Under the pieces are notes generated by a model. That model ran no database searches. It worked only from the letters and a program-made list of their open reading frames with translations, and was not told where the DNA came from. DNA of 64,000 nucleotides. It comes from Glycomyces salinus. Its GTDB lineage: Bacteria; Actinomycetota; Actinomycetes; Mycobacteriales; Micromonosporaceae. The stretch covers positions 1-64,000 of the forward strand of contig NZ_JAELXW010000010.1 in NCBI RefSeq assembly GCF_016428645.1, given 5' to 3'. Of this stretch, positions 3,376 to 50,991 are shown piece after piece. Made by a program: the position numbers and the translations under genes. How positions within the stretch are numbered: position 1 is the stretch's first letter; every line of letters starts with the position of its first letter.

Positions 3376-3396
3376 CCTAGGACTGACAGACCTAGG
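3376..3396. promoter_or_regulatory. Candidate operator: two CCTAGG boxes between divergent genes
   Basis: CCTAGG occurs at 3376-3381 and again at 3391-3396, 15 bp apart. Each box is self-palindromic. They lie in the 132-bp gap between the quinone reductase (minus) and the MmyB-type regulator (plus). The position suggests a binding site for that regulator; this is inference from location and symmetry. Confidence 0.4.
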
Positions 3397-3442
3397 CAGG
3401 TCGTCGAGGTTTTGGTGATACTTGGCGCGGAGGTGTTGTGGG

Positions 3443-4300: not shown

Positions 4301-4314
4301 CTCCAGCGGGTCCG

Positions 4315-5184: not shown

Positions 5185-5199
5185 GGTCCTTGCTTTCTT

Positions 5200-6069: not shown

Positions 6070-6208
6070 GCGGTGCCCCTTGGTAGGTGGTGTCTTGCGG
6101 GTTTCGGCGCCGGGGTCAATGGTCGGTCGGCGCGGATAGGCTTGCAAGACCGCACTTTCGGGTGGGGTTACTTACCTCGTGGTTCGAAATATGGTCGGGA
6201 GGAATCCG

Positions 6209-6547
6209 ATGCACATCGCTGGTGACGCAGATCAACTCTGCGGGATGGCGGTCGCCATCGACGTGGTCGGCGGGAAGTGGAAGCTGCACCTGATGTGGGT
6301 GCTGGCCGAGGGCCCGCAGCGCTTCGGGCGGATCCGGCGGATGCTCGATGGGGTGAGCGAGAAGGTCCTGGCCGAGAATCTGCGCCGGCTCGAGGCGGCC
6401 GGGATCGTGCACCGGGAGCTCTACCCGGAGGTGCCCCCGCGGGTGGAGTATTCGCTGACGCCGCTGGGGCGTGACCTCAATGAGGCGCTGGCGCCCCTGG
6501 AGGAGTGGGGCGACCGGAACCGGGAGATCTTGACGGCGCGAGGCTAG
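6209..6547 (+). CDS. HxlR-family winged-helix regulator
   Basis: A 112-residue HxlR/YodB-type MarR-like repressor. The family core is seen as CGMAVAIDVVGGKWKLHLMW, RFGRIRRMLDGVSEKVLAENLRRLEAAGIVHR and RVEYSLTPLG. A cysteine close to the N-terminus, as in redox- and electrophile-sensing members, is present (about residue 10). The ATG at 6209 has GGGAGGA at 6197-6203; in-frame starts at 6179 and 6191 lie upstream of or overlap that site. It is divergent from the two imine-reductase-like genes and is their likely regulator. Its stop overlaps the stop of the convergent DUF2087 gene by CTAG. Confidence 0.85.
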   Translation: MHIAGDADQLCGMAVAIDVVGGKWKLHLMWVLAEGPQRFGRIRRMLDGVSEKVLAENLRRLEAAGIVHRELYPEVPPRVEYSLTPLGRDLNEALAPLEEWGDRNREILTARG

Positions 6548-11980: not shown

Positions 11981-12081
11981 GCAGTCAAGGGTACTGGCGC
12001 GTGCCGGGAGGTGGGAGGCGGGTTTCACCTGTTGAGAGGTGTGATCTGCGCCGGAAGCCGGGTTCCCCCTAGGGTGACGAT

Positions 12082-12271: not shown

Positions 12272-12907
12272 ATGGGCACCATCGAGTCTCGCGAGTGGGT
12301 GGAAGTCACCGACGCCGCGAAGCTGCGCGAGCTGGTCGGAGAGGTCAAGCCGCGCGCGGCCACCAAGGAGCGGGCGAAGCTCCATCCGCGGGACCGCCAG
12401 TGGTTGGCGGCCTCGCCGTACTGCGTGATCGCCACCGCCGACGCCGAGGGCAACTGCGACGCCTCCCCCAAGGGGGACCCGCCCGGGTTCGTCCGGCCGC
12501 TGGACGATTCCACGATCGCGATCCCCGAACGCAAAGGCAACCACCGGGTCGACGGCTATCACAACGTCTTGTCCAACCCGCACGTCGGGCTGCTGTCGAT
12601 CGTCCCGGACCGGCGGGAGACCCTGCGGATCAACGGCCGGGCCAGGATCGTCTCGGAGGCGCCGTTCTTCGACGACATGGTCGTCAAGGGCCACCGGCCC
12701 GTCCTGGCGCTCGTCGTCGAGATCGACACGATCTTCTTCCACTGCGGGAAGGCGTCCATGCGCTCGGGGCTGTGGAAGCCCGAGACGTGGGACCCGGAGG
12801 CGCTGCCCTCGCACGCGTGCATGGTCAAGGACACCCAGGCGGTCGCCGAGACCATCGACCAGCTCACCGAGTACTACGGCGCGCAGTACGAGCGGCAGCT
12901 CTACTAG
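12272..12907 (+). CDS. Pyridoxamine 5'-phosphate oxidase-family flavoprotein
   Basis: A 211-residue split-barrel FMN-binding protein of the PPOX superfamily, DR2398/MSMEG-type subgroup. Characteristic segments are SPYCVIATADAEGNCDASPK, GFVRPLDDSTIAIPERKGN and HRVDGYHNVLSNPHVGLL. These proteins bind FMN or F420 and reduce or oxidise small substrates; a true PdxH role is unlikely. AAAGG (12261-12265) precedes two ATGs. The one at 12272 has the better spacing; 12266 would add two residues. The stop overlaps the convergent hypX-like stop by CTAG. Confidence 0.82.
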   Translation: MGTIESREWVEVTDAAKLRELVGEVKPRAATKERAKLHPRDRQWLAASPYCVIATADAEGNCDASPKGDPPGFVRPLDDSTIAIPERKGNHRVDGYHNVLSNPHVGLLSIVPDRRETLRINGRARIVSEAPFFDDMVVKGHRPVLALVVEIDTIFFHCGKASMRSGLWKPETWDPEALPSHACMVKDTQAVAETIDQLTEYYGAQYERQLY

Positions 12908-14568
12908 ACGAGGCCGGGGAAGCGCAGCTTGGCCGGGGTCCCGGCCGGCGCGGCCTTGCCGAGGAAGGCGCGGCGCTTGGCCTCGAACCCGTGCCGGTCG
13001 TCGAACAGGTCGCGGGCCATCTCGGCCAGCTCGATGGTCTGGTAGTAGGACATCGGCTTCGACTCGGCGCGGCGCCGCTCCTTGGCCGCGAACATGCGGC
13101 CGAGGGTGGCCGGTTCGCTGTAGCCGACGGCCACGGCCCGCAGCCAGGTGCCGAACGACTCCCAGTCGCGCGGGCCCACCGCGCCGATCAGGCCGAGCGT
13201 CGCGGCCCCGCGGGCGGCGATCGGGAGCTTGTCCCCCAGCAGGCGGGTGGCGCGCTCGGGCCCGATCCGGCTGGCGACCGACCAGGTGTGCAGTTCGGAG
13301 CCGAATATGCCCATGTCGTAGTACGGGTTGAGGACGACGCCGTCGCGGGCGACGGTGACGTCGGCGCACAGCCCGGTCATGACCCCGCCGGCTCCGGCGT
13401 TGGCGGTGAAAGCGGCGACGGTGAGCTGGTCGGCCCCGGCGATGGCGCCGCACAGCTCGTCGATGGCCCGGATGTTGGCCCAGGCTTCGGCGGCCGGGTC
13501 GGCGGCGGCGTCGATGACGCCCAGGTGGATGCCGTTGGAGAAGGCGTGCTCGGTGCCGGCGATGACGAGGAGGCGCGTGTCCTCGGTGAGGGCCTTCTCG
13601 ACCGCTCCGGTCAGGCGGCGGCACTGCTCGGTGTGCATCGCGCCGTTGTAGGAGCGGATGGTGAGGTAGCCGATGTCGCCGTCTCGGGTGTAGGCGGTCT
13701 CGGCCAGCCGCTCGGGCAGCGGCAGGTACGGGGCGTCTTCGGCGTCGATGATCATCGAGGCCGGGAGCTTGGGGCCCTTTCGGCGTTCGAGCACGGCGGC
13801 GTAGCCGATCCACAGGGTGCCTCGGCCGCAGGCGACGGCGACCGCTTCGAGGTTGCGGCCCACGACGGTGCCGGGGTCCGCGCCGTGGTCGTCGTCGGTG
13901 GCGGCGACGTCGTAGAGGCACAGGGTGCGCCCGGCCAGGTCGACCGGGGCGCCGGGGGCGCCGTCGGCGGCGTTGACGCGGCGCTCGAGTTCGGCGGCGT
14001 CGGCCCTCCAGTCCAGTTCGAAGCCCTTGCGGCGCAGCAGCGGCAGCTCGCCGGTGCCGGGGACCTCTCGGGGGTGATCGTCGGCCGGGAGCGGTCGGCC
14101 TCCGGCCTCGAACTTGCGGATGGTGCGGTCGACGCATTCCATGGCCGCGTCGGCGACGCGGCTGTTGTAGAGCTCGCTCTTGGCCGTGTGCGAGGGGACC
14201 TCGAAGGTGGCGGTGGCCCAGATGGGCCCGGCGTCCATCTCCTCGACCGCCGAGAGCGCGGTCACGCCCCAGCGGGCCCTGCCTTCGAGGATGGCGTGGT
14301 CCAGTGAGGACGGCCCGCGGTCACCGGCCGGGCCGGGGTGGACGATGACGGTGGTCCAGCGCCCCCACACCGCTTCGGGCACGCGGTGTTTGAGGAACGG
14401 GCACACGATCAGGTCGGGGTCTATGCGGGCTACGGCGGCGGTCAGCGCTTCGGGCGACTCGAAGGCCGGTGCGAGTTCCACACCGACCTCGTGTCCCTGT
14501 TCGCGCAGGGAACACCAGACTCGCTGTGTCAGACCGTTGAAGGCCGACGCCAGCAGCAGGATTTTCAA
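12904..14568 (-). CDS. hypX: HypX/HoxX-like hydrogenase maturation protein
   Basis: About 554 residues in two parts. The N-terminal 280 residues are a formyl-tetrahydrofolate-binding formyltransferase-like module with the family signature HPGPAGDRGPSSLDHAILEG. The C-terminal half is an enoyl-CoA hydratase/isomerase-like module (IGYLTIRSYNGAMHTEQ, AGTEHAFSNGIHLG, GAGGVMTGLCAD). HypX is known to make CO for the NiFe-hydrogenase active site from formyl-tetrahydrofolate. Start is TTG 14568 (LKILLLASAFNGL), supported by AGGAG six bases upstream; an in-frame codon at 14643 would run through the promoter. No hydrogenase or other hyp gene lies in the window. Confidence 0.85.
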   Translation of the reverse strand: MKILLLASAFNGLTQRVWCSLREQGHEVGVELAPAFESPEALTAAVARIDPDLIVCPFLKHRVPEAVWGRWTTVIVHPGPAGDRGPSSLDHAILEGRARWGVTALSAVEEMDAGPIWATATFEVPSHTAKSELYNSRVADAAMECVDRTIRKFEAGGRPLPADDHPREVPGTGELPLLRRKGFELDWRADAAELERRVNAADGAPGAPVDLAGRTLCLYDVAATDDDHGADPGTVVGRNLEAVAVACGRGTLWIGYAAVLERRKGPKLPASMIIDAEDAPYLPLPERLAETAYTRDGDIGYLTIRSYNGAMHTEQCRRLTGAVEKALTEDTRLLVIAGTEHAFSNGIHLGVIDAAADPAAEAWANIRAIDELCGAIAGADQLTVAAFTANAGAGGVMTGLCADVTVARDGVVLNPYYDMGIFGSELHTWSVASRIGPERATRLLGDKLPIAARGAATLGLIGAVGPRDWESFGTWLRAVAVGYSEPATLGRMFAAKERRRAESKPMSYYQTIELAEMARDLFDDRHGFEAKRRAFLGKAAPAGTPAKLRFPGLV

Positions 14569-14614
14569 TTGCGACTCCTCTTGCGGCGTGGGGAGTCGGT
14601 GACGCTCGGTATTT

Positions 14615-14643
14615 AGCGTACCCAGACTCGGCAATTCGCACAA
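14615..14643 (-). promoter_or_regulatory. Candidate promoter of the hypX-like gene
   Basis: Minus-strand -35 TTGTGC (14643-14638) and -10 TACGCT (14620-14615) with a 17-bp spacer, in the 75-bp gap after mshC. This would start transcription about 40 nt before the TTG codon at 14568. Confidence 0.5.
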
Positions 14644-34336: not shown

Positions 34337-35179
34337 TCATCGAGTTCGGCGGGAGGACCGGGGCCGGTGGCCGTATCGCTCCTCGAGCCAGGCCACGGCG
34401 AACGCCGTCATCCCCGGCGCGTCCACCAGGACGCTGTCCGCCATGCCGACCTTGCCGCGCCGGCCGGCTCCCGTGTCCAGGTAGTCGGCCACGATGAGCC
34501 CGAAGTAGTCCTCATCCGGCCCGGCCACGACCGGATTCCCGGTGTCGAATTCCTCGACCACGCGCCACTCGACACCCCGCGGCGTCGCGATCGGGTACTC
34601 GACCTCGATCCGGCGTTTGCCCGGAAGGTCCGCCAGGTGTTCGGCGTGGTGCAGGAGCGTCATCGTGTCCAGGGGTGCTCCGACCATCAGCACTTTTCCT
34701 TCGGCGTCCACCAGCCGGGCGAACGGCGAGTCGTCACCGTAGCCGTAGTCCAGCGGGTGGTCCGCGGTGAACTGTTCGGCGCGGGCGCCGAGCGCCGCCA
34801 CCGACGCCCCGGGGTTGCCGCTGCGGCGGGCCCCCTGCCGAGTGCCGACCGTCGCCGCGATGATCCCGTGGTCGCGGGCCGGGCGGGCCGTCCTCGGGTC
34901 GAACGGCGGGACGTGGTCGCGGAATTCGTCTCTGATCCGGCCATCGCCGTCCCAGACGTCGACGCTCAGCTCCCAGTCCTGGTAGCTCAGGAGGGTTCCG
35001 GTCCCGCGGACCACGTCCAGCACGGCGTCGACGAGCGTGTCCGGTCCGCCGATGACCGGGCCCACCCGCCCGAACGCGGCGTGGATCATCACTGCGTCGT
35101 CCTCGGCCAGGCCGAGCCCGCGCAGGTCGGAGGCCAGGCTCGAACACGTCGACACCTTCGCTTCGGAAGTCGAGTCCAT
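34337..35179 (-). CDS. Aminoglycoside 3-N-acetyltransferase (AAC(3)) family
   Basis: A 280-residue acetyl-CoA-dependent acetyltransferase of the AAC(3)/YokD (antibiotic_NAT) family. Segments matching AAC(3)-II/III-type enzymes are VMIHAAFGRVGPVIGG, PPFDPRTARPARDHG, GARRSGNPGASVAALG, SPFARLVDAEGKVLMVGAPL and LHHAEHLADLPGKRR. It would transfer acetyl to the 3-amino group of 2-deoxystreptamine aminoglycosides. Chromosomal actinomycete copies are often silent or have other amine substrates. Start ATG 35179. It is convergent with the SRPBCC gene, 9 nt apart. Confidence 0.86.
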   Translation of the reverse strand: MDSTSEAKVSTCSSLASDLRGLGLAEDDAVMIHAAFGRVGPVIGGPDTLVDAVLDVVRGTGTLLSYQDWELSVDVWDGDGRIRDEFRDHVPPFDPRTARPARDHGIIAATVGTRQGARRSGNPGASVAALGARAEQFTADHPLDYGYGDDSPFARLVDAEGKVLMVGAPLDTMTLLHHAEHLADLPGKRRIEVEYPIATPRGVEWRVVEEFDTGNPVVAGPDEDYFGLIVADYLDTGAGRRGKVGMADSVLVDAPGMTAFAVAWLEERYGHRPRSSRRTR

Positions 35180-35596: not shown

Positions 35597-36937
35597 TCAG
35601 CGGAATGCGGCTCTCAGCAGGCGGTGGGCCGCCGTCCGGTAACCGTTGGCGGCCAAGAGGCCTGCTGGTGCAAGAGCGTAGTCGGCGTCTACGACAGTCT
35701 CGGCGTCCTTCGGGGGCCGGAAACCCCCGGAAGTGTGTTCGCACACCGCTTCCCGCAGCCACTTCCGCGCTTTCTCGGGGGCGCGGCGCAGCACTCCCCC
35801 GGAGCCGACGACCAGCCCCACGGCCGCCAGGTCCTTGCCGCCTCGCAGCGGCTCGGCGGGGCCGCCGATGCGTTCGCCGCGCGCGTGGCGGCCGACCGCG
35901 ACCTTGGCCGCGAGCGCGCTGAGTTCGGCGTCGTCGGCGAGCGCTCGGGCGGTCTCGGACCGGAATTCGGGGACCGCGGCGCGGTGGCGGGCGGCCTCGG
36001 GCAGTCCGGTGCTCAGTTCGAGGTCGTCGGCCTCGGCGGCCTCGACGATCCCGACGGCGGTGTGCCGGACGCCGAGGTCGCCCTCCACCGTCCTGGAGCG
36101 CCAGGCGGTTCCGGCGACCTCGGCCCTCGGTCCGCTCAGTTCGGCGTCCGGGGTGAGCACCGAGTACACGTCGGTGGTCGCGCCGCCGACGTCGACCACG
36201 AGCAGGTCCCGTCCGAGCAGGTCGGCGAGGGCTTCGACTCCGGTCAGCACCGCGTCGGGGGTCGCGGCCTTGACCAGCTCGGTGAAGCCCTCGCGGGCTG
36301 AGAGGTGCTTTCCGGCGATCACGTGCCGCAGGAAGACCTCTCTGAGCGCGGTCCTGGCCGGGACCGGGTTGAGGGCGCCGATGCGCGGCAGGACGTTCTC
36401 CACGCAGGTCACCGCGAAGCCCGCTTCGGTCAGGAGGGTGCGGATGTCGTCGGTGGCCTCGCGGTTGCCCGCGAACACCACCGGGGCGCGGATGGCCGTG
36501 GCGGCCAGGGCCTCGGCGTGGGCGTGCAGCGCCGTCCGGTCGCCGCCGTCGGTGCCGCCGGCCAGCAGCAGCACGTCCGGTCGGGCCTCGGCCATGGCGC
36601 GCCAGTCGGCCTCGCCCATGTCTCCGGCGCACACGTGGACCACCTTGGCGCCGGCCGAGAGCCCGGCCCGGTAGGCGGCCCTGGCGGTCACCAGCGGCTC
36701 GTTGCCGACCACGCCCAGGCGCAGGCCGCCGCCGGCCGAGGAGCACACCAGGGTCCGGGCAGCCGTCGCCCCTTCGGGGAGCGCGTCCGCGACGGCCGCG
36801 CCGAGGCCGTCCATGACGTCGGTCTCCAACGTGGTCGGGTGCGAGGCGGTGCCTCGGAGCGCGCCGGTCTCGGCGTCGACGGCGGCGGCCTTGGTGTAGG
36901 TCGAGCCGACGTCGACGCAGACGACGACCTCGTTCAC
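35597..36937 (-). CDS. MutL/GlmL-type reactivating factor for B12-dependent aminomutase
   Basis: A 446-residue ASKHA ATPase-fold protein of the glutamate mutase MutL/ornithine-lysine aminomutase accessory family. The two phosphate-binding motifs are VDVGSTYTKAAAVD near the N-terminus and VDVGGATTDVYSV in the middle. It is last of the five overlapping genes kdd-kamD-kamE-kal-this gene, which implies it keeps the KamDE lysine 5,6-aminomutase active by exchanging damaged cobalamin. The GTG start at 36937 overlaps the kal stop (GTGA). It is unrelated to DNA-repair MutL. Confidence 0.88.
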   Translation of the reverse strand: MNEVVVCVDVGSTYTKAAAVDAETGALRGTASHPTTLETDVMDGLGAAVADALPEGATAARTLVCSSAGGGLRLGVVGNEPLVTARAAYRAGLSAGAKVVHVCAGDMGEADWRAMAEARPDVLLLAGGTDGGDRTALHAHAEALAATAIRAPVVFAGNREATDDIRTLLTEAGFAVTCVENVLPRIGALNPVPARTALREVFLRHVIAGKHLSAREGFTELVKAATPDAVLTGVEALADLLGRDLLVVDVGGATTDVYSVLTPDAELSGPRAEVAGTAWRSRTVEGDLGVRHTAVGIVEAAEADDLELSTGLPEAARHRAAVPEFRSETARALADDAELSALAAKVAVGRHARGERIGGPAEPLRGGKDLAAVGLVVGSGGVLRRAPEKARKWLREAVCEHTSGGFRPPKDAETVVDADYALAPAGLLAANGYRTAAHRLLRAAFR

Positions 36938-37329
36938 GGCACCACGACCGTGCCGGTCGCGGTCGTGGCCACGATCGGCTCGGTCAGGACCGCGGCGGCC
37001 GATTCTCCTCGTCCGGGCTCGGCGCGGCAGACGACGGCGAGGGTGAACTCGATGGTCCTGGAGCGGTTGCCGGTGCGAGTGACCGTCCCGGTCGCCTCCA
37101 CTACGTCCCCGGCTCTGATCGCGGCCTTGAACTGGACGTCGGCGTAGGAGGCGAACAGGCCCTCGTCGCCGTCGGTGCGGACGCAGATCTCGGTGGCGAC
37201 GTCGCCGAACATGGCGAGCGCGTAGGCGCCGTCGACCAGGTCGCCGCCGTAGTGGGCGTGGCTGTAGGGGATGTAGCGGCGGTGGGTGACGGTGGTGCCG
37301 TCGTGCCGGCCTTGCTGCGCTGCGCTCAT
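36934..37329 (-). CDS. kal: 3-aminobutyryl-CoA ammonia lyase
   Basis: A 131-residue hotdog-fold protein. In lysine fermentation Kal removes ammonia from L-3-aminobutyryl-CoA to give crotonyl-CoA. RRYIPYSHAHYGGDLVDGAY is the substrate-facing N-terminal segment, and VQFKAAIRAGDVVEATGTVT contains the hotdog helix-strand pair. The assignment rests on fold plus position between kamE and the reactivase; a generic thioesterase-like hotdog would look similar. Both ends overlap the neighbours by 4 nt. Confidence 0.85.
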   Translation of the reverse strand: MSAAQQGRHDGTTVTHRRYIPYSHAHYGGDLVDGAYALAMFGDVATEICVRTDGDEGLFASYADVQFKAAIRAGDVVEATGTVTRTGNRSRTIEFTLAVVCRAEPGRGESAAAVLTEPIVATTATGTVVVP

Positions 37330-38078
37330 GCGGGCTCCTCGCTGGGTGCGGCGGTGACGATGCGGTGGACGAGGTAGGAGGCGACGTCGGAGGGCGTGGT
37401 GCCGCGCGAGAAGATCCGGTCGACGCCGAGTTCGGCGGCCGAGTTCTCGTCGAAGCGGGGGCCGCCGACGACCAGGAGCGGTCGTCTTCCGGGCGGGAGC
37501 GCCTCGCGGAAGGCCGCCGACATCTCGCGGGTGTTGTGCAGGTGGGCGTCCTTCTGGGTGACGACCTGGCTGACCAGGACCGCGTCGGCTTCCTCGTCGA
37601 CGGCCCGGTTGACCAGGTCGGGGACGGCGACCTGGGCACCGAGGTTGACCACGCGCAGCTCGCGGTAGTACTCCAGGCCCTTCTCCCCCGCCACGCCCTT
37701 GATGTTGAGGATGGCGTCGATGCCGACGGTGTGGGCGTCGGTGCCGATGCAGGCGCCGACGACGCAGAGCTTGCGGCCGAGCTTCTCCTTGACGGCCTCG
37801 TTGACCTCCTTGGGGTTGAGCAGCGGGTAGTCGCGTTCGACGACTTTGACTTCGTCGAGGTTGATCAGGTGGGTGGCCGCGCCGTAGACCACGAAGAATG
37901 TGTGCGCCTCTCCGATGGGTTTGGCGTGGACGAGCATGGCCGCGTCGATGCCCATCTTGGAGGCCAGTTGGAGGGCGGCTCCTTCGGCGCGCTTGTCATG
38001 CGGGACCGGGAGGGTGAAGGAGAGCTGCACCATGCCGTCGCCGGTGGTGTCGCCGTAGGGGCGGACGATGCGGGTCAT
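37326..38078 (-). CDS. kamE: Lysine 5,6-aminomutase beta subunit (B12- and PLP-binding)
   Basis: A 250-residue B12-binding subunit. The base-off/His-on motif DxHxxG is D114-A-H116-T-V-G119 within GACIGTDAHTVGIDAIL. The lysine that forms the PLP aldimine is likely K127 in NIKG. With KamD it moves the terminal amino group of beta-lysine (or D-lysine) from carbon 6 to carbon 5 using adenosylcobalamin. Upstream residues (MTRIVRPYGDTTGDGMVQLS) match the KamE dimerisation domain. ATGA overlap with kamD. Confidence 0.93.
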   Translation of the reverse strand: MTRIVRPYGDTTGDGMVQLSFTLPVPHDKRAEGAALQLASKMGIDAAMLVHAKPIGEAHTFFVVYGAATHLINLDEVKVVERDYPLLNPKEVNEAVKEKLGRKLCVVGACIGTDAHTVGIDAILNIKGVAGEKGLEYYRELRVVNLGAQVAVPDLVNRAVDEEADAVLVSQVVTQKDAHLHNTREMSAAFREALPPGRRPLLVVGGPRFDENSAAELGVDRIFSRGTTPSDVASYLVHRIVTAAPSEEPA

Positions 38079-39646
38079 GCGGCATCGCCTCCGTCGAGGG
38101 CTTCGACGGCCGGGTTGTAGTAGTCCTCGGCCCGTTCGGCGACGCCTTCGAGGCCGCGTCCGCCGTCCGGCGGTCGTTTCATGATGCCGAAGGTGCCGTC
38201 GGCGATGGCGTCGAGCAGTCCGTCGTCGACGATCTTCCCGAGCAGGTCGACCGCCTCGCCCAGGACCTCGTTCGCGCGGCGGGCGATGAAGCCGTCAGCG
38301 GGAGGGTGGAAGTCCTCGGTGAGTCCTCCGGCGGCGTCGAGGACGTAGCGGACGTTCTGGAGTGCGATGTCGCGGTCGGACAGCCAGGGGGTGACGACCG
38401 CTTCGGTCATCATGCCGACCAGGAGGATGGACTGGCCTGTCATGACGCCGGCGAGGTTGAAGAAGCCGTCGAGGAGGTTGCCGCGGAAGACGTCGCCGGT
38501 CATGTGGCGGGTCGGCGGCATCCACTTCAGGGGCGCGTCTGGGAACAGCTGGCGCGCCAGGAGCGCGTGGGCCAGTTCCAGGCGGAACGACTGCGGCACT
38601 TCGGGGTTGATCTCGAAGGCGTGGCCGAGGCCGAGGAGTCCGTCGGGCAGTCCGGCCTCGTGCGCGAAGTATTCGTTGAGCAGTTGGGAGACGGTGACGG
38701 TGTGGGCGGCCTCGACGGCGTCGGCGGTGGTGAGGTAGTTGTCCTCGCCGGTGTTGATGATGATGCCGGCGCGGGCGTGGATCTGGCGGCTGAAGCGCTG
38801 GTCGACGAAGGTGCGGACGGGGTTGATGTCGCGGAAGAGGATGCCGTACATGCAGTCGTTGAGCATCATGTCGAGCCGGTTCATCCCGGCGAGCGCGGCG
38901 ATCTCGGGCATGCACAGGCCCGAGGCGTAGTTGCACAGGCGCACGTACCGGCCGACCTCGCGGGAGGTCTCGTCGAGGGCGGCGCGCATGAGCCGGAAGT
39001 TCTCGCCAGTGGCGTAGGTCCCGGCGAAGCCTTCGCGGGTGGCGCCTTCGGGGACGTAGTCGAGCAGGGACTGGCCGGTGGAGCGGATGACGGCGATGAT
39101 GTCGGCTCCGGCGCGGGCGGCGGCCTGGGCCTGCGGGATGTCCTCGTAGATGTCCCCGGTGGCGACGATGAGGTAGATCCAGGGGCGCTGGGGCGGGTCG
39201 CCGATGGTGTCGACCATGTCGGACCTGGTGCGTCGCTGGGCGTCGATCCGGTCGAAGCCGGAGGCGACGGCGGCTCGGGCGAGGTTCCGGGCAGTCGTGC
39301 GGGCGGTGCCGGTGGGCGGTTCGAATTCGACGCCTCCGGCGGCGCTCGCGTGGGCCAGGCGGGTCAGGTCGGGGTGGTCGCCCGCGGCGAGCGCGGCGAA
39401 GACGGGGAGGGCGACGCCGTGTTCGAGGCCGGTCTGCTCGGCGACGGCGTCGACGAGGCGGTTGACCCAGGGGATGCCTTCGGGGTCGGCGCCGGTGAGT
39501 CCGGCCAGGCGGAGGGTGGCGCGCTCGACCGAGACGGTGGTGTGGCCGCGGGCCATGTCGACCACGGGGCCGGCGGCGCGTTCGGCGAGGCTTCGGGCGC
39601 GGGCGACCTGGTCGGGGTCGAGCCTCAGCAGGGGCGCGGCGCTCAT
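38075..39646 (-). CDS. kamD: Lysine 5,6-aminomutase alpha subunit
   Basis: A 523-residue TIM-barrel subunit carrying the substrate and PLP-phosphate site. Family segments are RRTRSDMVDTIGDPPQRPWI, ATGDIYEDIPQAQAAARAGA, DIIAVIRSTGQSLLDYVPEG and LKWMPPTRHMTGD. Length is normal for KamD. It works as an alpha2beta2 enzyme with KamE. It overlaps kdd by ATGA at its start and kamE at its end. Confidence 0.94.
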   Translation of the reverse strand: MSAAPLLRLDPDQVARARSLAERAAGPVVDMARGHTTVSVERATLRLAGLTGADPEGIPWVNRLVDAVAEQTGLEHGVALPVFAALAAGDHPDLTRLAHASAAGGVEFEPPTGTARTTARNLARAAVASGFDRIDAQRRTRSDMVDTIGDPPQRPWIYLIVATGDIYEDIPQAQAAARAGADIIAVIRSTGQSLLDYVPEGATREGFAGTYATGENFRLMRAALDETSREVGRYVRLCNYASGLCMPEIAALAGMNRLDMMLNDCMYGILFRDINPVRTFVDQRFSRQIHARAGIIINTGEDNYLTTADAVEAAHTVTVSQLLNEYFAHEAGLPDGLLGLGHAFEINPEVPQSFRLELAHALLARQLFPDAPLKWMPPTRHMTGDVFRGNLLDGFFNLAGVMTGQSILLVGMMTEAVVTPWLSDRDIALQNVRYVLDAAGGLTEDFHPPADGFIARRANEVLGEAVDLLGKIVDDGLLDAIADGTFGIMKRPPDGGRGLEGVAERAEDYYNPAVEALDGGDAA

Positions 39647-40692
39647 GCGGTCACCTCCGTGCGGTCGGCGAAGAGGTCTTTCAGGCCGGGGTTGTCGCGC
39701 ATCAGGCCGAGTGCGTAATCGGCGTGGCCGGGGACGTAGCCGTTGCCGATGAGCATCTCGACGTCGGCGGCCAGGCCCTCGGCGCCGAGGGCGGCTGCCG
39801 GGAAGGAGGTGGCCATGGAGAAGAAGACGACGGTGCCGTGGGAGGCGGTGGAGAGGATGGCGCCGTGTTCGCAGCCGGGGACGTCGACGCAGACGACGGT
39901 GACGTCGGCGCCGCGGCCGTCGAGGGCGGCGATGACGGTCTCGGCGAGGCCGAGGGGGTCGGTCGCGTCGGCCACGGCGGTGTGGTCGGCCAGGCCGGAC
40001 CGCTCCAGGCGGTCGGCTTCGGCTTCGTCGCGGACGATGCCGAGGACGGTGGCGGCGTGGGCGTCGCGGGCGGCGGCCAGGGACAGGGAGCCGGACTTGC
40101 CGGCGGCGCCGAGGACGGCGACGGTGCTGGTCGCGTGGGTGCGGCGGGCGACGACGCGGCGGACGAGGGCGGGGGCGCCGCAGACGTCGAAGACGGCCAG
40201 GGCGACCGGTTCGGGGAGGTCGTCGGGGAGGACGGCGGCGATGGAGCGGGCGAAGAGGATGGCGGTGCCGGTGGTGGGGATCTGCTCGGTGAGGCCGTCC
40301 CAGTGGGCCAGGTCGTCGTCGATGCGGAGCGGGGTGAGGGTCAGGGAGACGAGGGTGGCGATCTTCTGTCCGGGACGCAGGCCGAGGGGCGAGCGGGGTC
40401 CGACGGCCTCGACGGTGCCGATGAGCATGCCGCCGGAGCCGGTGGCGGGGTTGTGCATCTTGCCGCGTTCGGCGATGATGCCGCGGACGGTCTCCCGGAT
40501 GGCCGCTCCGTCGCCGCCGTGGGCGGTGCTGAGCTGCCGGAAGGAGGCGGCGTCGAGGTTGAGGCGCTCGACGCGGACGCGTACTTCGTCGTCTTCTATG
40601 TCGGGTGTGGCGTCGAGCCGGTCGGCCGCTTGTGGCAGGACTCCGGCCGGGCTGACGACTCGGTGCGATCCGACCGGTGAGCCTGTCGACAT
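39643..40692 (-). CDS. kdd: L-erythro-3,5-diaminohexanoate dehydrogenase
   Basis: A 349-residue NAD(P)-dependent dehydrogenase that oxidatively deaminates 3,5-diaminohexanoate to 5-amino-3-oxohexanoate. The Rossmann motif is VAVLGAAGKSGSLSLAAA, and the N-terminal HRVVSPAGVLPQAADRLDAT is typical of Kdd. First gene of the minus-strand arm, so its promoter lies in the 153-bp gap shared with kamA. The ATG start is at 40692. Confidence 0.91.
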   Translation of the reverse strand: MSTGSPVGSHRVVSPAGVLPQAADRLDATPDIEDDEVRVRVERLNLDAASFRQLSTAHGGDGAAIRETVRGIIAERGKMHNPATGSGGMLIGTVEAVGPRSPLGLRPGQKIATLVSLTLTPLRIDDDLAHWDGLTEQIPTTGTAILFARSIAAVLPDDLPEPVALAVFDVCGAPALVRRVVARRTHATSTVAVLGAAGKSGSLSLAAARDAHAATVLGIVRDEAEADRLERSGLADHTAVADATDPLGLAETVIAALDGRGADVTVVCVDVPGCEHGAILSTASHGTVVFFSMATSFPAAALGAEGLAADVEMLIGNGYVPGHADYALGLMRDNPGLKDLFADRTEVTA

Positions 40693-40723
40693 CGTTGCCG
40701 CCCTTCAGGTTGTGAAGAATTCT

Positions 40724-40748
40724 CTATATCTCGGTATGTGAGATCTAG
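40724..40748. promoter_or_regulatory. Candidate operator of the lysine-catabolism cluster
   Basis: An inverted repeat with 9-bp arms, CTATATCTC (40724-40732) and GAGATCTAG (40740-40748), one mismatch, 7-bp spacer GGTATGT. It sits in the middle of the divergent kdd/kamA intergenic region, 32 bp from the kdd start codon, where one regulator could control both arms. No regulator gene is adjacent. Confidence 0.5.
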
Positions 40749-40845
40749 CCAACAACTGTAACTGAAGGTTATCCTCGTCACAAGACGGGTATCCGCCGTC
40801 CTGAAGCTTCCCCGGGGCAACATCCCGGGCAAGGAGGTACAGAAC

Positions 40846-42318
40846 GTGTCCGACCGACCGATCGGTGACCAACCGACCAGCCTGATCGAGCAGCCGTACC
40901 AGTACCAGCGCCGCACCCTCGTCGAGCCGGACTGGACCCGGTTCCCCGGGTGGCGGGACGCGACCGCCGAGGAATGGGCCACCGCCCAATGGCAGCGCGC
41001 GCACTGCGTCAAGAGCATCGGGCAGCTCCGCGCCGTCATGGGCGACCGGCTGCACGAGGACTTCTACGACGACCTCGAGGCCGACATGAGCACCTCGGCG
41101 ACGATGTCGATGCTGCTGCCTCCGCAGATGCTCAACACGATGGCCCCCGACGCCGACGAGACCGCCCCCGGCTCGTGGACCGACGCCTTCTACGCCGACC
41201 CGGTGCGCCGCTACATGCTCCCGGTCGCCTCCGACCGCCGCGACGACTGGCCCTCCCACCCGTTCGCGACGCGCGACTCCCTCCACGAGCACGACATGTG
41301 GGCCGTGGAGGGCCTCACCCACCGCTACCCCACCAAGGTTCTCGCCGAACTGCTCTCGACCTGCCCCCAGTACTGCGGCCACTGCACCCGCATGGACCTG
41401 GTCGGCAAGTCCACGCCCGCGGTCGACAAGCGCCGCCTGGCGCTCAAGCCGGTCGACCGGCAGACCGCCATCCTCGACTACCTGCGCGCCCACGAGGGCG
41501 TGCGGGACGTGGTCGTCTCCGGCGGCGACGTCGCCAACCTGCCGTGGCACCAGCTCGAGCGGTTCCTGGACGCGCTGCTGGAGATCGAGACCATCCGCGA
41601 CATCCGGCTGGCCACCAAGGCGCTCATGGGCCTGCCGCAGCACTGGCTCCAAGACGAGATCGTCGACGGCATGGGCCGGGTCGCCAAGCGGGCCGCCGAA
41701 CAGGGCGTCAACCTGGCGATCCACACCCACATCAACCACGTGAACTCGGTGACCCCGGCCGTGGCGGCCGCGGCGGCGGCGATGCTGGACGCGGGCGTGC
41801 GGGACGTGCGCAACCAGGGCGTGCTCATGCGCGGGGTCAACGACTCCCCCGAGGCCCTGCTGGACCTGTGCTTCGCCATGCAGGGCGAGGCCGGCATCCT
41901 GCCGTACTACTTCTACATGTGCGACATGATCCCCAACTCCGAGCACTGGCGCACCTCGGTGGCCGCCGCCCAGGACCTCCAGCACGCCATCATGGGCTAC
42001 CTGCCCGGCTACGCCACCCCCAGGATCATCTGCGACGTGCCGATGGTCGGCAAGCGCTGGGTCCACCAGCTGTCCGAATACGACCGGGAGCTGGGCATCT
42101 CCTACTGGACCAAGAACTACCGGACCAGCATCGAGGCCGACGAGCCCGACGCGCTCACCCGGCGCTACCCGTTCTACGACCCGATCGACTCCCTGCCGAA
42201 GGCCGGCCAGGAGTGGTGGCGGAACATGCACCCGCCCGAGCGGACCAGGGAGGCCGGCGACGCGGCGGCCGTCCGGTCCCGGCGGGCCAGCGAGCGCGAA
42301 CAGCACAGCGAGGTCTGA
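40846..42318 (+). CDS. kamA: L-lysine 2,3-aminomutase
   Basis: A 490-residue radical SAM/PLP enzyme converting L-lysine to L-beta-lysine, the entry step of the pathway. The cluster cysteines are in CPQYCGHC (about residues 172-179), followed by VVVSGGDVAN. The probable PLP lysine is in PMVGKRW (about residue 405), where classical KamA carries its PLP lysine in a PGGGGK loop. GTG 40846 has an ideal AAGGAGGT at 40831-40838. A CCCGGG-N7-CCCGGG stem (40811-40829) ends just before that site and could affect access to it. Its sequence is well diverged from the clostridial type. Confidence 0.9.
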   Translation: MSDRPIGDQPTSLIEQPYQYQRRTLVEPDWTRFPGWRDATAEEWATAQWQRAHCVKSIGQLRAVMGDRLHEDFYDDLEADMSTSATMSMLLPPQMLNTMAPDADETAPGSWTDAFYADPVRRYMLPVASDRRDDWPSHPFATRDSLHEHDMWAVEGLTHRYPTKVLAELLSTCPQYCGHCTRMDLVGKSTPAVDKRRLALKPVDRQTAILDYLRAHEGVRDVVVSGGDVANLPWHQLERFLDALLEIETIRDIRLATKALMGLPQHWLQDEIVDGMGRVAKRAAEQGVNLAIHTHINHVNSVTPAVAAAAAAMLDAGVRDVRNQGVLMRGVNDSPEALLDLCFAMQGEAGILPYYFYMCDMIPNSEHWRTSVAAAQDLQHAIMGYLPGYATPRIICDVPMVGKRWVHQLSEYDRELGISYWTKNYRTSIEADEPDALTRRYPFYDPIDSLPKAGQEWWRNMHPPERTREAGDAAAVRSRRASEREQHSEV

Positions 42319-42320
42319 GC

Positions 42321-43157
42321 ATGTCGACCGTCATCACCGTCGCCACCACCGGCGCCGAGGTCGACAAGCGACGCGTCCCGGCCCTGCCGGTGACGCTCGA
42401 CGAGCTGGTCGGCACCGCCGTCGAATGCGAGAGGCGGGGCGCCTCGGTCGTCCACGTCCACATCCGCGGCGAGGACGCCGAGCCCACGCTCGACCTGGGG
42501 CGGCTGCGCGAGACCGTCGCGGCGCTGCGGGAGTCGACCGGCCTGGTCGTGCAGCTGTCGACCGGCGGCGCGGTCGCCGATCCCGAACAGGACCGCCTGA
42601 GGGTCCTCGATGCCGAACCCGACATGGCCTCCTGCACGATGGGGACGGTCAACTTCGGCGACGACGTGTTCATGAACCGTCCGGCGTTCATCGCGGAGCT
42701 CCACGAGCGGATGCGGGAGCGGCGGATCGTGCCCGAGTACGAGCTGTTCGACCTCGGGCACCTCCCGGCGCTGGGGCGGCTGCTGGACGAGCGCGGGCTG
42801 CCGTTCGGCGGCCACGTGCACGTGGACTTCGTGCTCGGCGTGCCCGGCGGCGCGGCCGGGGACGCCTCGACGGTGACGGCCTTCGCCGAGGCGGTGCGGC
42901 GGTACCTGCCGGAGGGGACGACCTTCTCGGCCACCGGCATCGGGCGCACCACGCTGCCGGTCATGTTCGCGTCCCTGGCCCACGGGGGCCACCTTCGGGT
43001 GGGCATGGAGGACACGACCTCGTTCGCGAGGAGGCAGCCGGTCACCGGCAACCCGCAGCTGGTCGAGCGCGCCGCCGAGGCGGCCGCGCTGGCCCAGCGC
43101 CCGGCGATGACGGCCGCGGAGGCCCGCAAGCTGCTGTGCGTCCGCGACTCCGGTTGA
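42321..43157 (+). CDS. kce: 3-keto-5-aminohexanoate cleavage enzyme (BKACE)
   Basis: A 278-residue TIM-barrel metalloenzyme of the beta-keto acid cleavage family. The zinc ligands are in SVVHVHIRG and FGGHVHVDF. TGLVVQLSTGG, YELFDLGHL and EDTTSFARRQPVTGN are also family segments. Kce reacts 5-amino-3-oxohexanoate with acetyl-CoA to give L-3-aminobutyryl-CoA and acetoacetate. It starts 2 nt after the kamA stop, so the two are one operon. The BKACE family has other substrates, but the kam context fixes the assignment. Confidence 0.91.
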   Translation: MSTVITVATTGAEVDKRRVPALPVTLDELVGTAVECERRGASVVHVHIRGEDAEPTLDLGRLRETVAALRESTGLVVQLSTGGAVADPEQDRLRVLDAEPDMASCTMGTVNFGDDVFMNRPAFIAELHERMRERRIVPEYELFDLGHLPALGRLLDERGLPFGGHVHVDFVLGVPGGAAGDASTVTAFAEAVRRYLPEGTTFSATGIGRTTLPVMFASLAHGGHLRVGMEDTTSFARRQPVTGNPQLVERAAEAAALAQRPAMTAAEARKLLCVRDSG

Positions 43158-43177: not shown

Positions 43178-43666
43178 CTATGACTCCAGGTCGCGTTCGT
43201 AGCGGCGGGTCGGGACGTCGACCTTGCCGCCGGGTATCTCGGCGCGGTACTCGAACGGCCCGGTGTCGCTCCAGCCGGCCCGTTCGTAGAACGCCCGCGC
43301 CCTCGCGTTGCCCTCGACGACCGCGAGCCACGCCCGCCGGTGGCCCGAGCCGCGGATGATCGCCTCGGCGTCGCGCAGCAGTTCCAGGGCCACCCCGGTG
43401 CCGCGCGCCGAGCGGTCGACGAAGACCTGCTCCACCTCGTCGCCATCCACAGTGGTGAAACCGAGGATCGCGCCGTCGCCCTCGGCGACCCGCGTGGTCG
43501 CGATGCGGGCCTGGACTCGCGGCAGGAAAGAGCCGCCGGTGCGGTACTCGTAGAGCTCGTCGGGCACGTGCCCGACGTGGCCGTCGCCCCAGCCCTCGTG
43601 CCAGATCTCGGCGATGCGCGCCGCGTCCTCCGGTCGGGCCGACCGGATCCTCCCGTTGAATTCCAC
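43178..43666 (-). CDS. GNAT-family N-acetyltransferase
   Basis: A 162-residue GNAT acetyltransferase. Motif A for acetyl-CoA binding is VEQVFVDRSARGTGVALELL, and motif B is ARAFYERAGWSDTG near the C-terminus. N-terminal RSARPEDAARIAEIWHEG is typical. The acceptor amine is unknown. Start is GTG 43666. The next gene upstream, an exporter, ends 3 nt away and runs the same way, so cotranscription is likely. Confidence 0.86.
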   Translation of the reverse strand: MEFNGRIRSARPEDAARIAEIWHEGWGDGHVGHVPDELYEYRTGGSFLPRVQARIATTRVAEGDGAILGFTTVDGDEVEQVFVDRSARGTGVALELLRDAEAIIRGSGHRRAWLAVVEGNARARAFYERAGWSDTGPFEYRAEIPGGKVDVPTRRYERDLES

Positions 43667-47088: not shown

Positions 47089-47706
47089 ATGTCGAGACCC
47101 CCAGTGACCGCCGACCACGTCGAGCGGACCGTGCGACTCGCGGTCGACGCCCTGCGGCCCGCGCCGATCGAGCGGTGGGACCGCCGGGCCGGGCCCATGG
47201 ACTGCTCCTGCTGGGAGGCCGCGGACCACCTGTGCTCGGCCCTGTTCAGATACGCCTCCAGGTTCGGCCTGCGTACTCCGCCGACCGACCGCTCTGTCGC
47301 CATCGACCCCGGACCGCGGGATCAGATCGTCCTCGACCGGAAAGTCGGCGCGCCGCTGGAGGGCGTCGAGTCGATGGGGAGTCTGCTGGTCGCGATGCTC
47401 GGCACCGCCGGACCGGAGTGGCGCGCCTGGCACATCTGGGGCGTCGCCGACCCCGAGGGGTTCGCGGCCATGGGCGTGGTCGAGACGGGCGTCCACGCCT
47501 GGGACCTCGCGCAGGGGCTCGGCCTGGAGTGGAGGCTGCCGGACGAATTGGGAGCTCCGGCCTTGGCGCGGCTGTTCCCCGAGGCGCCCTCGGCGACCGA
47601 CCCGTGGGCGACGCTGCTGTGGGCCACCGGCCGGGGCGACCTGCCCGGGCATGGGCGTCGCGACCCGGACTGGAGCTGGCACTCGGCGCCGCTGTCAGTC
47701 GGCTAG
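47089..47706 (+). CDS. MDMPI-N/DinB-like protein, paralogue 2
   Basis: A 205-residue paralogue of the preceding gene. Both share the order WDxRxG-CWE-DPEGFAAMGVVE, DLAxGLGL and PWxxLLWxTGR. Here the candidate metal-site segments are SCWEAADHLCSALF and TGVHAWDLAQGLGLEW, so one of the two histidines of HTHD in copy 1 is replaced (HAWD). ATG 47089 begins MSRPPVTADHV; an in-frame upstream extension has no support. The 3' end overlaps the convergent serpin gene by 12 nt. Confidence 0.7.
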   Translation: MSRPPVTADHVERTVRLAVDALRPAPIERWDRRAGPMDCSCWEAADHLCSALFRYASRFGLRTPPTDRSVAIDPGPRDQIVLDRKVGAPLEGVESMGSLLVAMLGTAGPEWRAWHIWGVADPEGFAAMGVVETGVHAWDLAQGLGLEWRLPDELGAPALARLFPEAPSATDPWATLLWATGRGDLPGHGRRDPDWSWHSAPLSVG

Positions 47707-48906
47707 CTCTGGTTCGGCGACCCAGCCGGCGACCAGGATCAGGCCCGAGGGGCGGTGGCGGGCGGCGTAGGCGAAGGGCCGGTCGAAGTTGATCGAGACG
47801 CGCCGGTGCACGTACTCGGTGGCGGGAACGAAGGCCCCGGTCGGGGTCATGCCGATGGCGGTCACCGCCGCGGCCTTGAAGCCGGTGGCGCTGAAGACGG
47901 CCGTGCACGACTGCCTCGCCTGGCTGACGTAGGTCCGCTGGGCGGCCAGGCGGGTGAATTCGGCCTCGTGCTCCTGGGAGGCGGAGACCAGGCCGAAGAC
48001 CGAGGCGTCCTCGAGCAGGTCGAGGTCGGAGGAGACGGAGAACCGGACGGTCTGGATCTGCACTTCGGGGCGCTGCTGCGGGCGGCCGTCGCGGTATTCG
48101 GTGACGGCCACGCCCGGGGCCCGCTCCCCCACGGCCAGGTCGGCGGCGGCCGAACGGCCCCAATCCCGGTCGCCCGCGGCGTCGACCAGTTCGGAGACGA
48201 CCTGCTGCGGGCTCAGGTCCTCCCGGCCCAGCGCCAGCAGGACGTCGATGTCGCCGGAGCCGGGCACGGTCAGCACCGAGGCCCGATCGGTCACGCGCAG
48301 CACGTCGTCGTGGACGGTGACCCGCAGGACCCGGCACGGTCCGAGCTCGGACCACGGCCCCGAACGAAAATCGAGATCGGCGTCGGTGAACGAGGTGCCC
48401 CAGGTCGTCTCGACCATGAGCGCGCTGGCCAGGAGCAGGTCGACCGGTTCGGTGAGGTCGATCGGCATCCGCTCGATCATGCCATCGGTGTGCTCGGCGG
48501 CCCAGCGGTCGACCATGCGCTTGTCGGCCTCGGCGTCGCCGGTGAGGGCGCCGATGGCCTCGGCCGGGAGCCGATCGATCCAGTCGGGGTCGAGGGTGAT
48601 GAAGGCGCCGGCCCACACGGCGAGGGCCAGGCGGATGTCGGGGGTCGAGGCGGCGGCGCCGAGCAGGGCTCCGGCGAGCCGTTCGGTGCGGGCGTCGTCG
48701 ACTCCGGCCGCGTCGGTCAGTTCGGTGCGGGTGCGTCCGATCGCGCCGGAGGCCAGGGCCGTCAGCAGCGGCCAGACTCCGAGGGCGGAGGCGGAGGCGG
48801 GGACGTCGTCGCGGGAGGCGAGCCAGCGGCGGGTCAGTTCGTTGGCCGCTGTGATCTCCTCGGCCGACAGCGCCTTCTCGATACGAGTGGTGCCATCTGT
48901 GCCCAT
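47695..48906 (-). CDS. Serpin-family protein
   Basis: A 403-residue serine protease inhibitor-like protein without an obvious signal peptide. The family C-terminus is clear: VSINFDRPFAYAARHRPSG then LILVAGWVAEP, matching the serpin DRPF and gate region. The hinge of the reactive loop is probably GFKAAAVTAIGMT, with a loop sequence TPTGAFVPATEY. An N-terminal helix region LTRRWLASRDDVPASASALG and the TTWGTSF shutter strand also fit. Bacterial serpins are sporadic. A cytosolic one might protect against internal proteases. The target is unknown. Confidence 0.8.
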   Translation of the reverse strand: MGTDGTTRIEKALSAEEITAANELTRRWLASRDDVPASASALGVWPLLTALASGAIGRTRTELTDAAGVDDARTERLAGALLGAAASTPDIRLALAVWAGAFITLDPDWIDRLPAEAIGALTGDAEADKRMVDRWAAEHTDGMIERMPIDLTEPVDLLLASALMVETTWGTSFTDADLDFRSGPWSELGPCRVLRVTVHDDVLRVTDRASVLTVPGSGDIDVLLALGREDLSPQQVVSELVDAAGDRDWGRSAAADLAVGERAPGVAVTEYRDGRPQQRPEVQIQTVRFSVSSDLDLLEDASVFGLVSASQEHEAEFTRLAAQRTYVSQARQSCTAVFSATGFKAAAVTAIGMTPTGAFVPATEYVHRRVSINFDRPFAYAARHRPSGLILVAGWVAEPELAD

Positions 48907-48947
48907 GCTGGGACTCTAGCGCCTCCGCGCCCGGCGCGGTAATTCGG

Positions 48948-48977
48948 TTGCGTCCGCTCGGGTGGCGGGGATACCGT
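48948..48977 (+). promoter_or_regulatory. Promoter of the ribosomal-protection GTPase gene
   Basis: -35 TTGCGT (48948-48953), 18-bp spacer, -10 TACCGT (48972-48977). This gives a leader of about 100 nt before ATG 49087. Confidence 0.45.
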
Positions 48978-48990
48978 GCGGGCCAGTCCA

Positions 48991-49082
48991 GTTCGAAGCG
49001 AAAGGATCGGGATTCCGACATGCGCCAACTTTCGAAGTTCCACACGATCGGCCATACCACTCTCGACCCGAGGACTTCGAAC
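48991..49082 (+). promoter_or_regulatory. Leader with three TTCGAA repeats able to sequester the start region
   Basis: GTTCGAAG (48991-48998) is the exact complement of CTTCGAAC (49075-49082), which directly follows the GAGGA ribosome-binding site (49070-49074). A local palindrome AACTT-TCG-AAGTT (49027-49039) shares the TTCGAA core and could compete for pairing. A short frame beginning ATG 49020 runs through this region and overlaps the GTPase start. This resembles translational attenuation; no experimental basis. Confidence 0.4.
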
Positions 49083-49086
49083 GCAT

Positions 49087-50991
49087 ATGGACTTTCTCAA
49101 CCTGGGCATCGTCGCACACGTCGACGCCGGTAAGACCAGCCTGACCGAGCGGCTGCTGTTCAACGCCGGGATTCTCGACCGCGTCGGCAGCGTCGACGAC
49201 GGCAGCACCCAGACCGACTCCATGGAGTTGGAGCGGCGGCGCGGGATCACCATCCAGTCGGCGGTCGTGGCGTTCGCGCTCGGCGGCTCGACGGTCAACC
49301 TCATCGACACGCCCGGCCACACCGACTTCGTCGCCGAGGTCGAGCGTGCTCTGCACGTCCTGGACGGGGCGGTCCTGGTCGTCTCGGCCGTCGAGGGCGT
49401 CCAGGCGCAGACGCGGGTGCTCATGCGCACACTGCGCCGTTTGGCGGTACCGACGGTCCTGTTCGTCAACAAGATCGACCGGGCCGGTGCACGCGAGGCC
49501 GGTCTGCTGCGGGAGGTGGCCGAGCACCTGGCCCCGGCGATCGTGCCGATGACGACCGTGCGCGGCATCGGGACCGCCGAGGCGGCGACCGAGCCGGTGG
49601 ACCTGTCGGCGCCGGATGCCTTCGAGCCGGCCGCCGAGATCCTGGCCGACGGCAGCGACGAGTTCATGGCCGCCTATCTGGAGGACCCCGCCGGAGTCGA
49701 CATCGCCGCCGAACTGGCCGCGCAGACCCGCCGCGGCCTGGCGCACCCGGTCTTCTTCGGGTCGGCCGTGACCGGGGCGGGCGTGGAGGCGCTGACGGCG
49801 GGCATCCGACATTTCCTGCCGTCGCCTCGCCGGTCGTCCGAAGGCGGGCCGCGCGGGACGGTGTTCAAGGTCGAGCACGCCGCCTCGGGCCGCAAGATCG
49901 CCTACATCCGAGTGCGCGGCGGTACCCTCGTCGCCCGCGAGCACCTGGAGGTGCACCGGCGTGGGCCGGAGGGGACGGTCGCCCTCGACGCGGGCAAGGT
50001 GACCTCGGTCGAGGTGTTCGAATCCGGGACGGCCACGGTCGCCGAGGCGGCGCCGCCCGGCAGCATCGCGAAGGCATCGGGTCTGACCGATGTCCGGATC
50101 GGCGACGCGGTCGGCTCGGCCGAAGAGCTGCCGGAGCGCGGCCTGTTCACGCCGCCGACCCTGGAAACGGTGGTGCGGCCGGTCGACCGGAACGAGCGGA
50201 TCGCCCTGGCCAAGGCGCTGACCAGCCTCTCCGAGCGCGACCCGCTGGTCGACCCGCACCTGGACGAGGTGTCGGGCCAGACGGCGGTGCGGCTGTACGG
50301 GGACGTCCAGAAGGAGGTCGTGGCCTCGCTGCTGGACGAGGAGTTCGGGATCGCCGTCAGGTTCGAGAAGACCCGTGCGATCCACATCGAACGGCCGTAC
50401 GCCGTCGCCGAGGCGCTGCACGAGATGGGCCGGTGGGCGCCCACCTCTCACGCGGTGACACTTGGGCTGAGGATCGAACCGGCCGAGCCGGGGTCGGGGG
50501 TCCTGTACGAGCTGGAGGTCGAGCGCGGCTCGCTGACGAAGGCGTACCGCAACGCGGTCGAGGGGACCGTCCGCAGAAGGCTGCGCCGCGGCCCCTATGG
50601 CTGGGAGATCACCGACTGCCGGGTGGCGGTGACCGCCTCCGGATACCTCGGGCCGGTGAAGCCGGGCCAGTTCCGCGAGGTGGCCGAGCTGCTGCTGGAC
50701 CAGCTGATCGACGAGGCCGGGACCACCGTGTACGCGCCGGTCAACAGCTTCCAGCTGGAGTTCCCCGACCGGTCCTCGGGGAAGATCGTGGCCGCGCTGA
50801 TCGATTCGAGGGCACTGATCAAGGGCCAGTTCTCGGGCGGCGGCGTCGGCTACATCAGGGGGCTGATGGACGCCGAGTCCGTGCACGGTTTCGAGTCGCG
50901 GCTGCCGGGGCTGACGCGTGGGAGGTCGGTGTTCATCACCGAGCTCGACCACTATCGGCCGGTTCGCACGAATCCGCCTCGGAGGAACTGA
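49087..50991 (+). CDS. Tet(M)/OtrA-like ribosomal protection GTPase
   Basis: A 634-residue translation-factor GTPase, close in length to Tet(M) (about 640). G1 is AHVDAGKTSLTERLL, followed by RRRGITIQSAV (switch I), DTPGHTDFVAEVERAL (G3) and NKIDRAGA (G4). The EF-G-like domains follow: domain III/IV (ERPYAVAEALHEMG, GYLGPVKPGQFREV) and the C-terminal region (RALIKGQFSGGGVGY). Such proteins release tetracycline from the ribosome; actinomycete producers use OtrA for self-protection. Many non-producers carry such homologues with unproven resistance function. ATG 49087, with GAGGA 12 nt upstream. Confidence 0.87.
   Translation: MDFLNLGIVAHVDAGKTSLTERLLFNAGILDRVGSVDDGSTQTDSMELERRRGITIQSAVVAFALGGSTVNLIDTPGHTDFVAEVERALHVLDGAVLVVSAVEGVQAQTRVLMRTLRRLAVPTVLFVNKIDRAGAREAGLLREVAEHLAPAIVPMTTVRGIGTAEAATEPVDLSAPDAFEPAAEILADGSDEFMAAYLEDPAGVDIAAELAAQTRRGLAHPVFFGSAVTGAGVEALTAGIRHFLPSPRRSSEGGPRGTVFKVEHAASGRKIAYIRVRGGTLVAREHLEVHRRGPEGTVALDAGKVTSVEVFESGTATVAEAAPPGSIAKASGLTDVRIGDAVGSAEELPERGLFTPPTLETVVRPVDRNERIALAKALTSLSERDPLVDPHLDEVSGQTAVRLYGDVQKEVVASLLDEEFGIAVRFEKTRAIHIERPYAVAEALHEMGRWAPTSHAVTLGLRIEPAEPGSGVLYELEVERGSLTKAYRNAVEGTVRRRLRRGPYGWEITDCRVAVTASGYLGPVKPGQFREVAELLLDQLIDEAGTTVYAPVNSFQLEFPDRSSGKIVAALIDSRALIKGQFSGGGVGYIRGLMDAESVHGFESRLPGLTRGRSVFITELDHYRPVRTNPPRRN

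Follow-up and report, generated by a model that had tools for sequence, protein, structure and literature searches.

A complete lysine catabolic gene cluster in Glycomyces salinus and its counterparts in other actinomycetes

Positions 35597-43157 of a 64,000-nt window from Glycomyces salinus (assembly GCF_016428645.1, contig NZ_JAELXW010000010.1; all positions are numbered within this window) hold a lysine catabolic cluster that is real, complete and conserved and that represents a known pathway in variant form, with all seven of its genes (kdd, kamD, kamE, kal, mutL, kamA and kce) inside the region. Judged from the encoded proteins, the cluster probably serves the catabolism of L-lysine to acetyl-coenzyme A (acetyl-CoA), which would feed respiration. 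For the class as a whole, we lean slightly towards a broader picture, in which a respiratory lysine pathway is widespread, combines a distinct and possibly air-tolerant KamA branch with KamDE, would convert lysine to a net three acetyl-CoA without any oxygen-using step, and has Kce encoded at a separate locus that became joined to the kam genes only in Glycomyces.

Gene content and predicted reactions

The initial annotation had described kamA, kamD, kamE, kdd, kce, kal and a MutL-type reactivator gene as two divergent arms, and all seven were located:

35597..36937, minus strand: mutL/glmL-type reactivator (GTG start at 36937, 446 residues; 4-bp overlap with kal)
36934..37329, minus strand: kal, 3-aminobutyryl-CoA ammonia lyase (131 residues; NF052388; 4HBT superfamily)
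37326..38078, minus strand: kamE (NF052385, 347 bits, cut-off 280)
38075..39646, minus strand: kamD (NF052384, 690 bits, cut-off 600; 1xrs chain A)
39643..40692, minus strand: kdd, L-erythro-3,5-diaminohexanoate dehydrogenase (NF052381, 257 bits, cut-off 200; 7dl3)
40846..42318, plus strand: kamA, divergent lysine 2,3-aminomutase homologue of the radical S-adenosylmethionine (SAM) type (490 residues; 2a5h match)
42321..43157, plus strand: kce (NF052387, 262 bits, below the cut-off of 382; 2y7d match)

The minus arm runs kdd-kamD-kamE-kal-mutL with a 4-bp overlap at each of its four junctions, and in the plus arm 2 bp separate the stop of kamA from the start of kce. The arms diverge from 40692 and 40846 across a gap of 153 bp.

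From the homologues of these proteins we infer the substrates and the direction of the pathway. KamA would convert L-lysine to beta-lysine, which KamDE, using adenosylcobalamin and pyridoxal phosphate (PLP), would turn into 3,5-diaminohexanoate, and MutL would serve to reactivate KamDE. Kdd would oxidise the diaminohexanoate to 3-keto-5-aminohexanoate, from which Kce, together with acetyl-CoA, would form acetoacetate and 3-aminobutyryl-CoA, and Kal would remove ammonia from the latter to give crotonyl-CoA. Acetoacetate could then be activated by an acetoacetate-CoA ligase, and crotonyl-CoA would be hydrated and oxidised to acetoacetyl-CoA with no reduction to butyrate.

KamD, KamE and Kdd passed their NCBIfam models with the scores listed above, as did Kal (190 bits, cut-off 160), so that lysine 5,6-aminomutase alpha and beta, 3,5-diaminohexanoate dehydrogenase and 3-aminobutyryl-CoA ammonia lyase were all found as members of the pathway. 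KamD matched the solved structure 1xrs chain A with an expectation value (E) of 4.4e-160 and Kdd matched 7dl3 with E 8e-66. In KamE, the DxHxxG motif and the PLP lysine, to which we assign cofactor roles from general knowledge, agree with the solved chains and recur unchanged in 80 of 80 aligned rows. MutL scored 423 bits with PF13941 in the longer version of its open reading frame (ORF); the trimmed ORF exceeded the GlmL-family subfamily model TIGR01319 (257 bits, cut-off 204) and fell short of two narrower GlmL equivalogs (330 and 261 bits, cut-offs 475 and 600). Its family membership and its co-occurrence with the mutase genes, an association, suggest that it acts as the KamDE reactivator.

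The sole solved-structure match of KamA was 2a5h, a lysine 2,3-aminomutase (E 1.4e-37), with which its cysteines and the equivalents of R134, D293 and D330 align; K337 lies just beyond the end of this local alignment and was placed by motif. We take R134 to bind the carboxylate, D293 and D330 the far amino group, and K337 the PLP. The three cluster cysteines and all four of these residues are invariant in 72 of 72 rows, comprising the window protein and 71 relatives after one further, too short relative was dropped. Kce had its best solved match, out of 14, in 2y7d (E 2.1e-56). Seven residues were checked in Kce, with functional roles presumed from general knowledge, and 36 of 36 rows keep all of them; one of the seven, a glutamate close to the N-terminus, is missing from the aligned position in 3chv and 3fa5.

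A second KamA-family radical SAM protein is encoded at 1121-2413 on the plus strand. It keeps the cysteines, the carboxylate arginine and the PLP lysine, whereas R and M replace both lysine-binding aspartates, unlike in the KamA of the cluster, and it is perhaps an aminomutase for another substrate.

Conservation across actinomycetes and the position of kce

Scanning genome contigs for kamD returned at least 594 stretches, 581 of them confirmed, and the best 80 were retained. These loci are the most similar ones and no random sample; they comprise 18 Glycomyces-type loci (17 from Glycomyces and the metagenome-assembled genome L008) and 62 others, with the top matches, all Glycomyces, being 85-90% identical. 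When the class was sampled evenly, kamD matched in 77 of 394 genomes, 73 of them over the cut-off, compared with none of 14 control genomes. The cluster is ordinary and widespread within the class rather than exceptional. A trait special to this actinomycete, as the initial annotation had proposed, is not supported, with kamD in 73 of 394 genomes and with several of the enzyme models already curated by NCBI.

The kam loci of Kribbella, Nocardioides, Knoellia, Stackebrandtia, Asanoa and further actinomycetes share the plan found here wherever the genes are seen, with kamA divergent from kdd, followed by kamD, kamE and kal. Wherever both genes were seen among the 80 related loci, kamA and kdd were divergent (71 of 71), so this arrangement is not due to chance. 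All seven genes were seen in 18 of 18 Glycomyces-type loci, and the 62 other loci contained kal in 61, kamE in 61, kdd in 57, kamA in 54, mutL in 12 and kce in none; several loci stop at contig edges, and some of these misses are cuts. Next to kamA, kce was seen in 18 of 18 Glycomyces-type loci, unlike in the others, where the fetched flanks did not contain it (62 of 62).

In order to trace mutL, we searched 37 non-Glycomyces genomes together with 14 controls, no kamD-free actinomycete being among the latter. PF13941 was above its cut-off in 36 of the 37 genomes. The gene lies by kamD in 7 of the 37 loci, and 29 of the other 30 genomes carry it, apparently elsewhere. Two of the 14 controls matched and none passed the cut-off.

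Kce was sought in the genomes of 46 of the 80 loci, three of them Glycomyces. A homologue was present in 45 of the 46 (best scores 253-284 bits) and in none of the 14 controls, and the genome of the window holds a single match. Seventeen non-Glycomyces Kce neighbourhoods were fetched, in which 16 of the Kce genes were labelled and all 17 were identified by tblastn. They form a separate site whose genes recur between genomes, with no other kam gene recognised. The Kce tree (midpoint-rooted for drawing purposes only) tracks host families and places Glycomyces beside Stackebrandtia (support 100/98), within a Micromonosporaceae-type set. Given this grouping, relocation is simpler than a horizontal gain of kce by Glycomyces, which the tree disfavours, and the pattern suggests that an inherited kce moved to kamA in Glycomyces. 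We read this apparent relocation as an independent tie between both functions.

Of the 62 non-Glycomyces loci, 36 carry an Amidohydro_3 gene among their kam genes, most often placed between kdd and kamD (L044:6531-8159, L028:8412-9995 and 34 others), whereas the 18 Glycomyces-type loci carry none. At first sight this pattern resembled a replacement of kce. We dismissed that role because 42 of the 43 non-Glycomyces genomes searched contain a Kce homologue, and the 17 homologues examined keep the checked residues.

Fate of the products and alternative explanations

The genome encodes an acetoacetate-CoA ligase (737 bits, cut-off 521), a haem-copper oxidase, and 3-hydroxybutyryl-CoA dehydrogenase-like and FadB/FadJ-like proteins, which scored above the Pfam cut-off and below the NCBIfam cut-offs. 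No match in the genome was obtained for the SCOT/Ato-family CoA transferase model TIGR02429 (butyryl-CoA:acetoacetate), which 5 of 14 controls pass. Crotonyl-CoA carboxylase/reductase (Ccr) gave 27 weak matches in the genome, none over the cut-off, and an ethylmalonyl-CoA route for crotonyl-CoA was rejected for want of such a Ccr. Because the assembly is in 211 contigs and its completeness is 98.8%, one absence is no proof. Together, the sinks present and missing favour oxidation of the products over fermentation. The cell very likely uses cobalamin, because a B12-dependent MetH-type methionine synthase is encoded at 8450-12028. Of the aerobic catabolic variant put forward in the initial annotation, the complete upper pathway and the oxidative-looking sink are supported, and its being special to this actinomycete is not. 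The accompanying statement that none of butyryl-CoA dehydrogenase, CoA transferase and amino-acid permease lies in reach is true of the window ORFs scanned, which were all but a few small called ones (e.g. 6179-6547 and 12559-12867).

Several observations weigh against lysine catabolism feeding respiration. KamA falls below both the lysine 2,3-aminomutase model TIGR03820 (164 bits, cut-off 525) and the KamA family model TIGR00238 (168 bits, cut-off 199). Likewise, Kce lies below its curated model, which was exceeded in none of the 46 genomes searched, one of which had no Kce homologue at all, and MutL was missing from one of its 37. The role of the acetoacetate-CoA ligase in the pathway is circumstantial, its gene being unlinked to the cluster. 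The absence of butyryl-CoA dehydrogenase applies to the scanned window ORFs, no genome-wide search having been made. There is no regulator or transporter gene among the cluster genes. CobN (TIGR02257) was not found in the genome, which makes the B12 supply uncertain; as a guess, B12 may be imported.

Fermentation or low-oxygen survival, in which crotonyl-CoA would be reduced to butyryl-CoA, or acetyl-CoA converted to acetate and adenosine triphosphate (ATP), is unlikely here. It is suggested by the pathway being fermentative where studied, according to PMC4697335 and to section 5 of PMC3149608. A further point for fermentation, and against respiration, is a gene that by eye is pta-like between kdd and kamD in six Knoellia/Phycicoccus-type loci (L044 at 3246-6508, L048, L049, L067, L071 and L075); ackA was confirmed as adjoining in L044, the sole locus tested, hinting at acetate formation there. 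Against fermentation in G. salinus speak the missing TIGR02429 transferase, an acetoacetate-CoA ligase that spends ATP, and the lack of a butyryl-CoA dehydrogenase among the scanned window ORFs, this enzyme, Pta and AckA not having been sought genome-wide.

Beta-lysine is used in osmolytes or antibiotics elsewhere, and KamA might make it for such a purpose, with the remaining genes clearing the surplus. A GNAT acetyltransferase gene at 43178-43666 would fit this idea, which we nevertheless regard as extremely improbable. By tblastn, the 18 Glycomyces-type loci, a few of them short, yielded neither the GNAT gene nor the adjoining MFS gene; the seven NCBIfam matches of the GNAT protein include no beta-lysine acetyltransferase model, and the downstream steps are conserved together with kamA. 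It is also very unlikely that the mutases use ornithine, D-lysine or a further diamino acid in place of L-lysine. While the divergence of KamA and Kce below curated cut-offs would be in line with this, KamD and KamE score far better with lysine than with ornithine models (690 versus 126 and 347 versus 114 bits), and KamA keeps its lysine-binding aspartates in every aligned row.

The usual picture of lysine breakdown in aerobes runs via cadaverine, aminoadipate or saccharopine. If the respiratory lysine pathway works under air, as we infer, supposedly anaerobic chemistry would be common in actinomycetes and would depend on B12 and probably on a reactivator. Aerobe versions of radical aminomutases, a cleavage enzyme and an amine dehydrogenase would then be on offer. 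Moreover, surveys that take kamA-kamD-kce as a sign of butyrate production could count organisms without the butyrate-forming end. The pathway in aerobic actinomycetes appeared in none of the literature matches listed; an earlier notice in Kreimeyer 2007 or Bastard 2014 is possible.

The five upper steps are the same as in the lysine fermentation of Clostridium sticklandii, Fusobacterium nucleatum and Intestinimonas (kamA-kamDE-kdd-kce-kal). Unlike in those fermenters, the genes here form two divergent arms, KamA and Kce lie under the cut-offs, and the TIGR02429 CoA transferase is lacking from the genome. As described in PMC3149608 (section 5), the last enzymes of the fermenter route are butyryl-CoA dehydrogenase, CoA transferase, thiolase, Pta and AckA, and for Intestinimonas on lysine the use of AtoDA as CoA transferase is reported (PMC4697335). 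The fermenter clusters drawn include mutS, going by the figure 2 legend of PMC3149608, whereas none of the seven genes here is MutS-like. A Cloacamonas variant with the aminotransferase Kat, as outlined in PMC3149608, shares the steps through 3-aminobutyryl-CoA; in contrast to it, kal is over its cut-off here and no aminotransferase is among the seven genes.

The divergent intergenic region and neighbouring genes

Alignment of the region between the arms gave the following elements:

40693..40845, no strand assigned: divergent intergenic region (aligned with 18 Glycomyces-type loci)
40729..40743, plus strand: candidate operator, inverted repeat TCTC-N7-GAGA (intergenic alignment)
40764..40784, plus strand: invariant 21-base block, candidate regulatory or promoter element (intergenic alignment)

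The pattern TCTC..TATG.G.GA is invariant in 19 of 19 aligned intergenic regions. The inverted repeat is perfect in the window, where it occurs once, and its right arm is imperfect in some relatives; the 21-base block is identical between the window and 18 of 18 Glycomyces-type loci. A B12 riboswitch between the arms was considered and rejected: no Rfam model matched at the gathering threshold, and a relaxed threshold yielded just two microRNA matches, at chance level. Neither a consensus promoter nor a terminator was found between the arms or downstream of kce. In other actinomycetes, 31 loci share a gene of Lrp type, an assignment that comes from one identified member of this group of homologous genes.

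The cluster is flanked at 34337-35179, on the minus strand, by a gene of the aminoglycoside 3-N-acetyltransferase family, which exceeds the curated cut-off and which tblastn did not find in any of the 18 Glycomyces-type loci. Further away, the minus strand at 12904-14643 encodes a formyltransferase fused with an enoyl-CoA hydratase domain, a layout that presumably resembles HypX/HoxX. At 47695-50991, a bacterial serpin gene adjoins that of an EF-G-like GTPase, and a serpin match was also present in 7 of the 18 Glycomyces-type loci.

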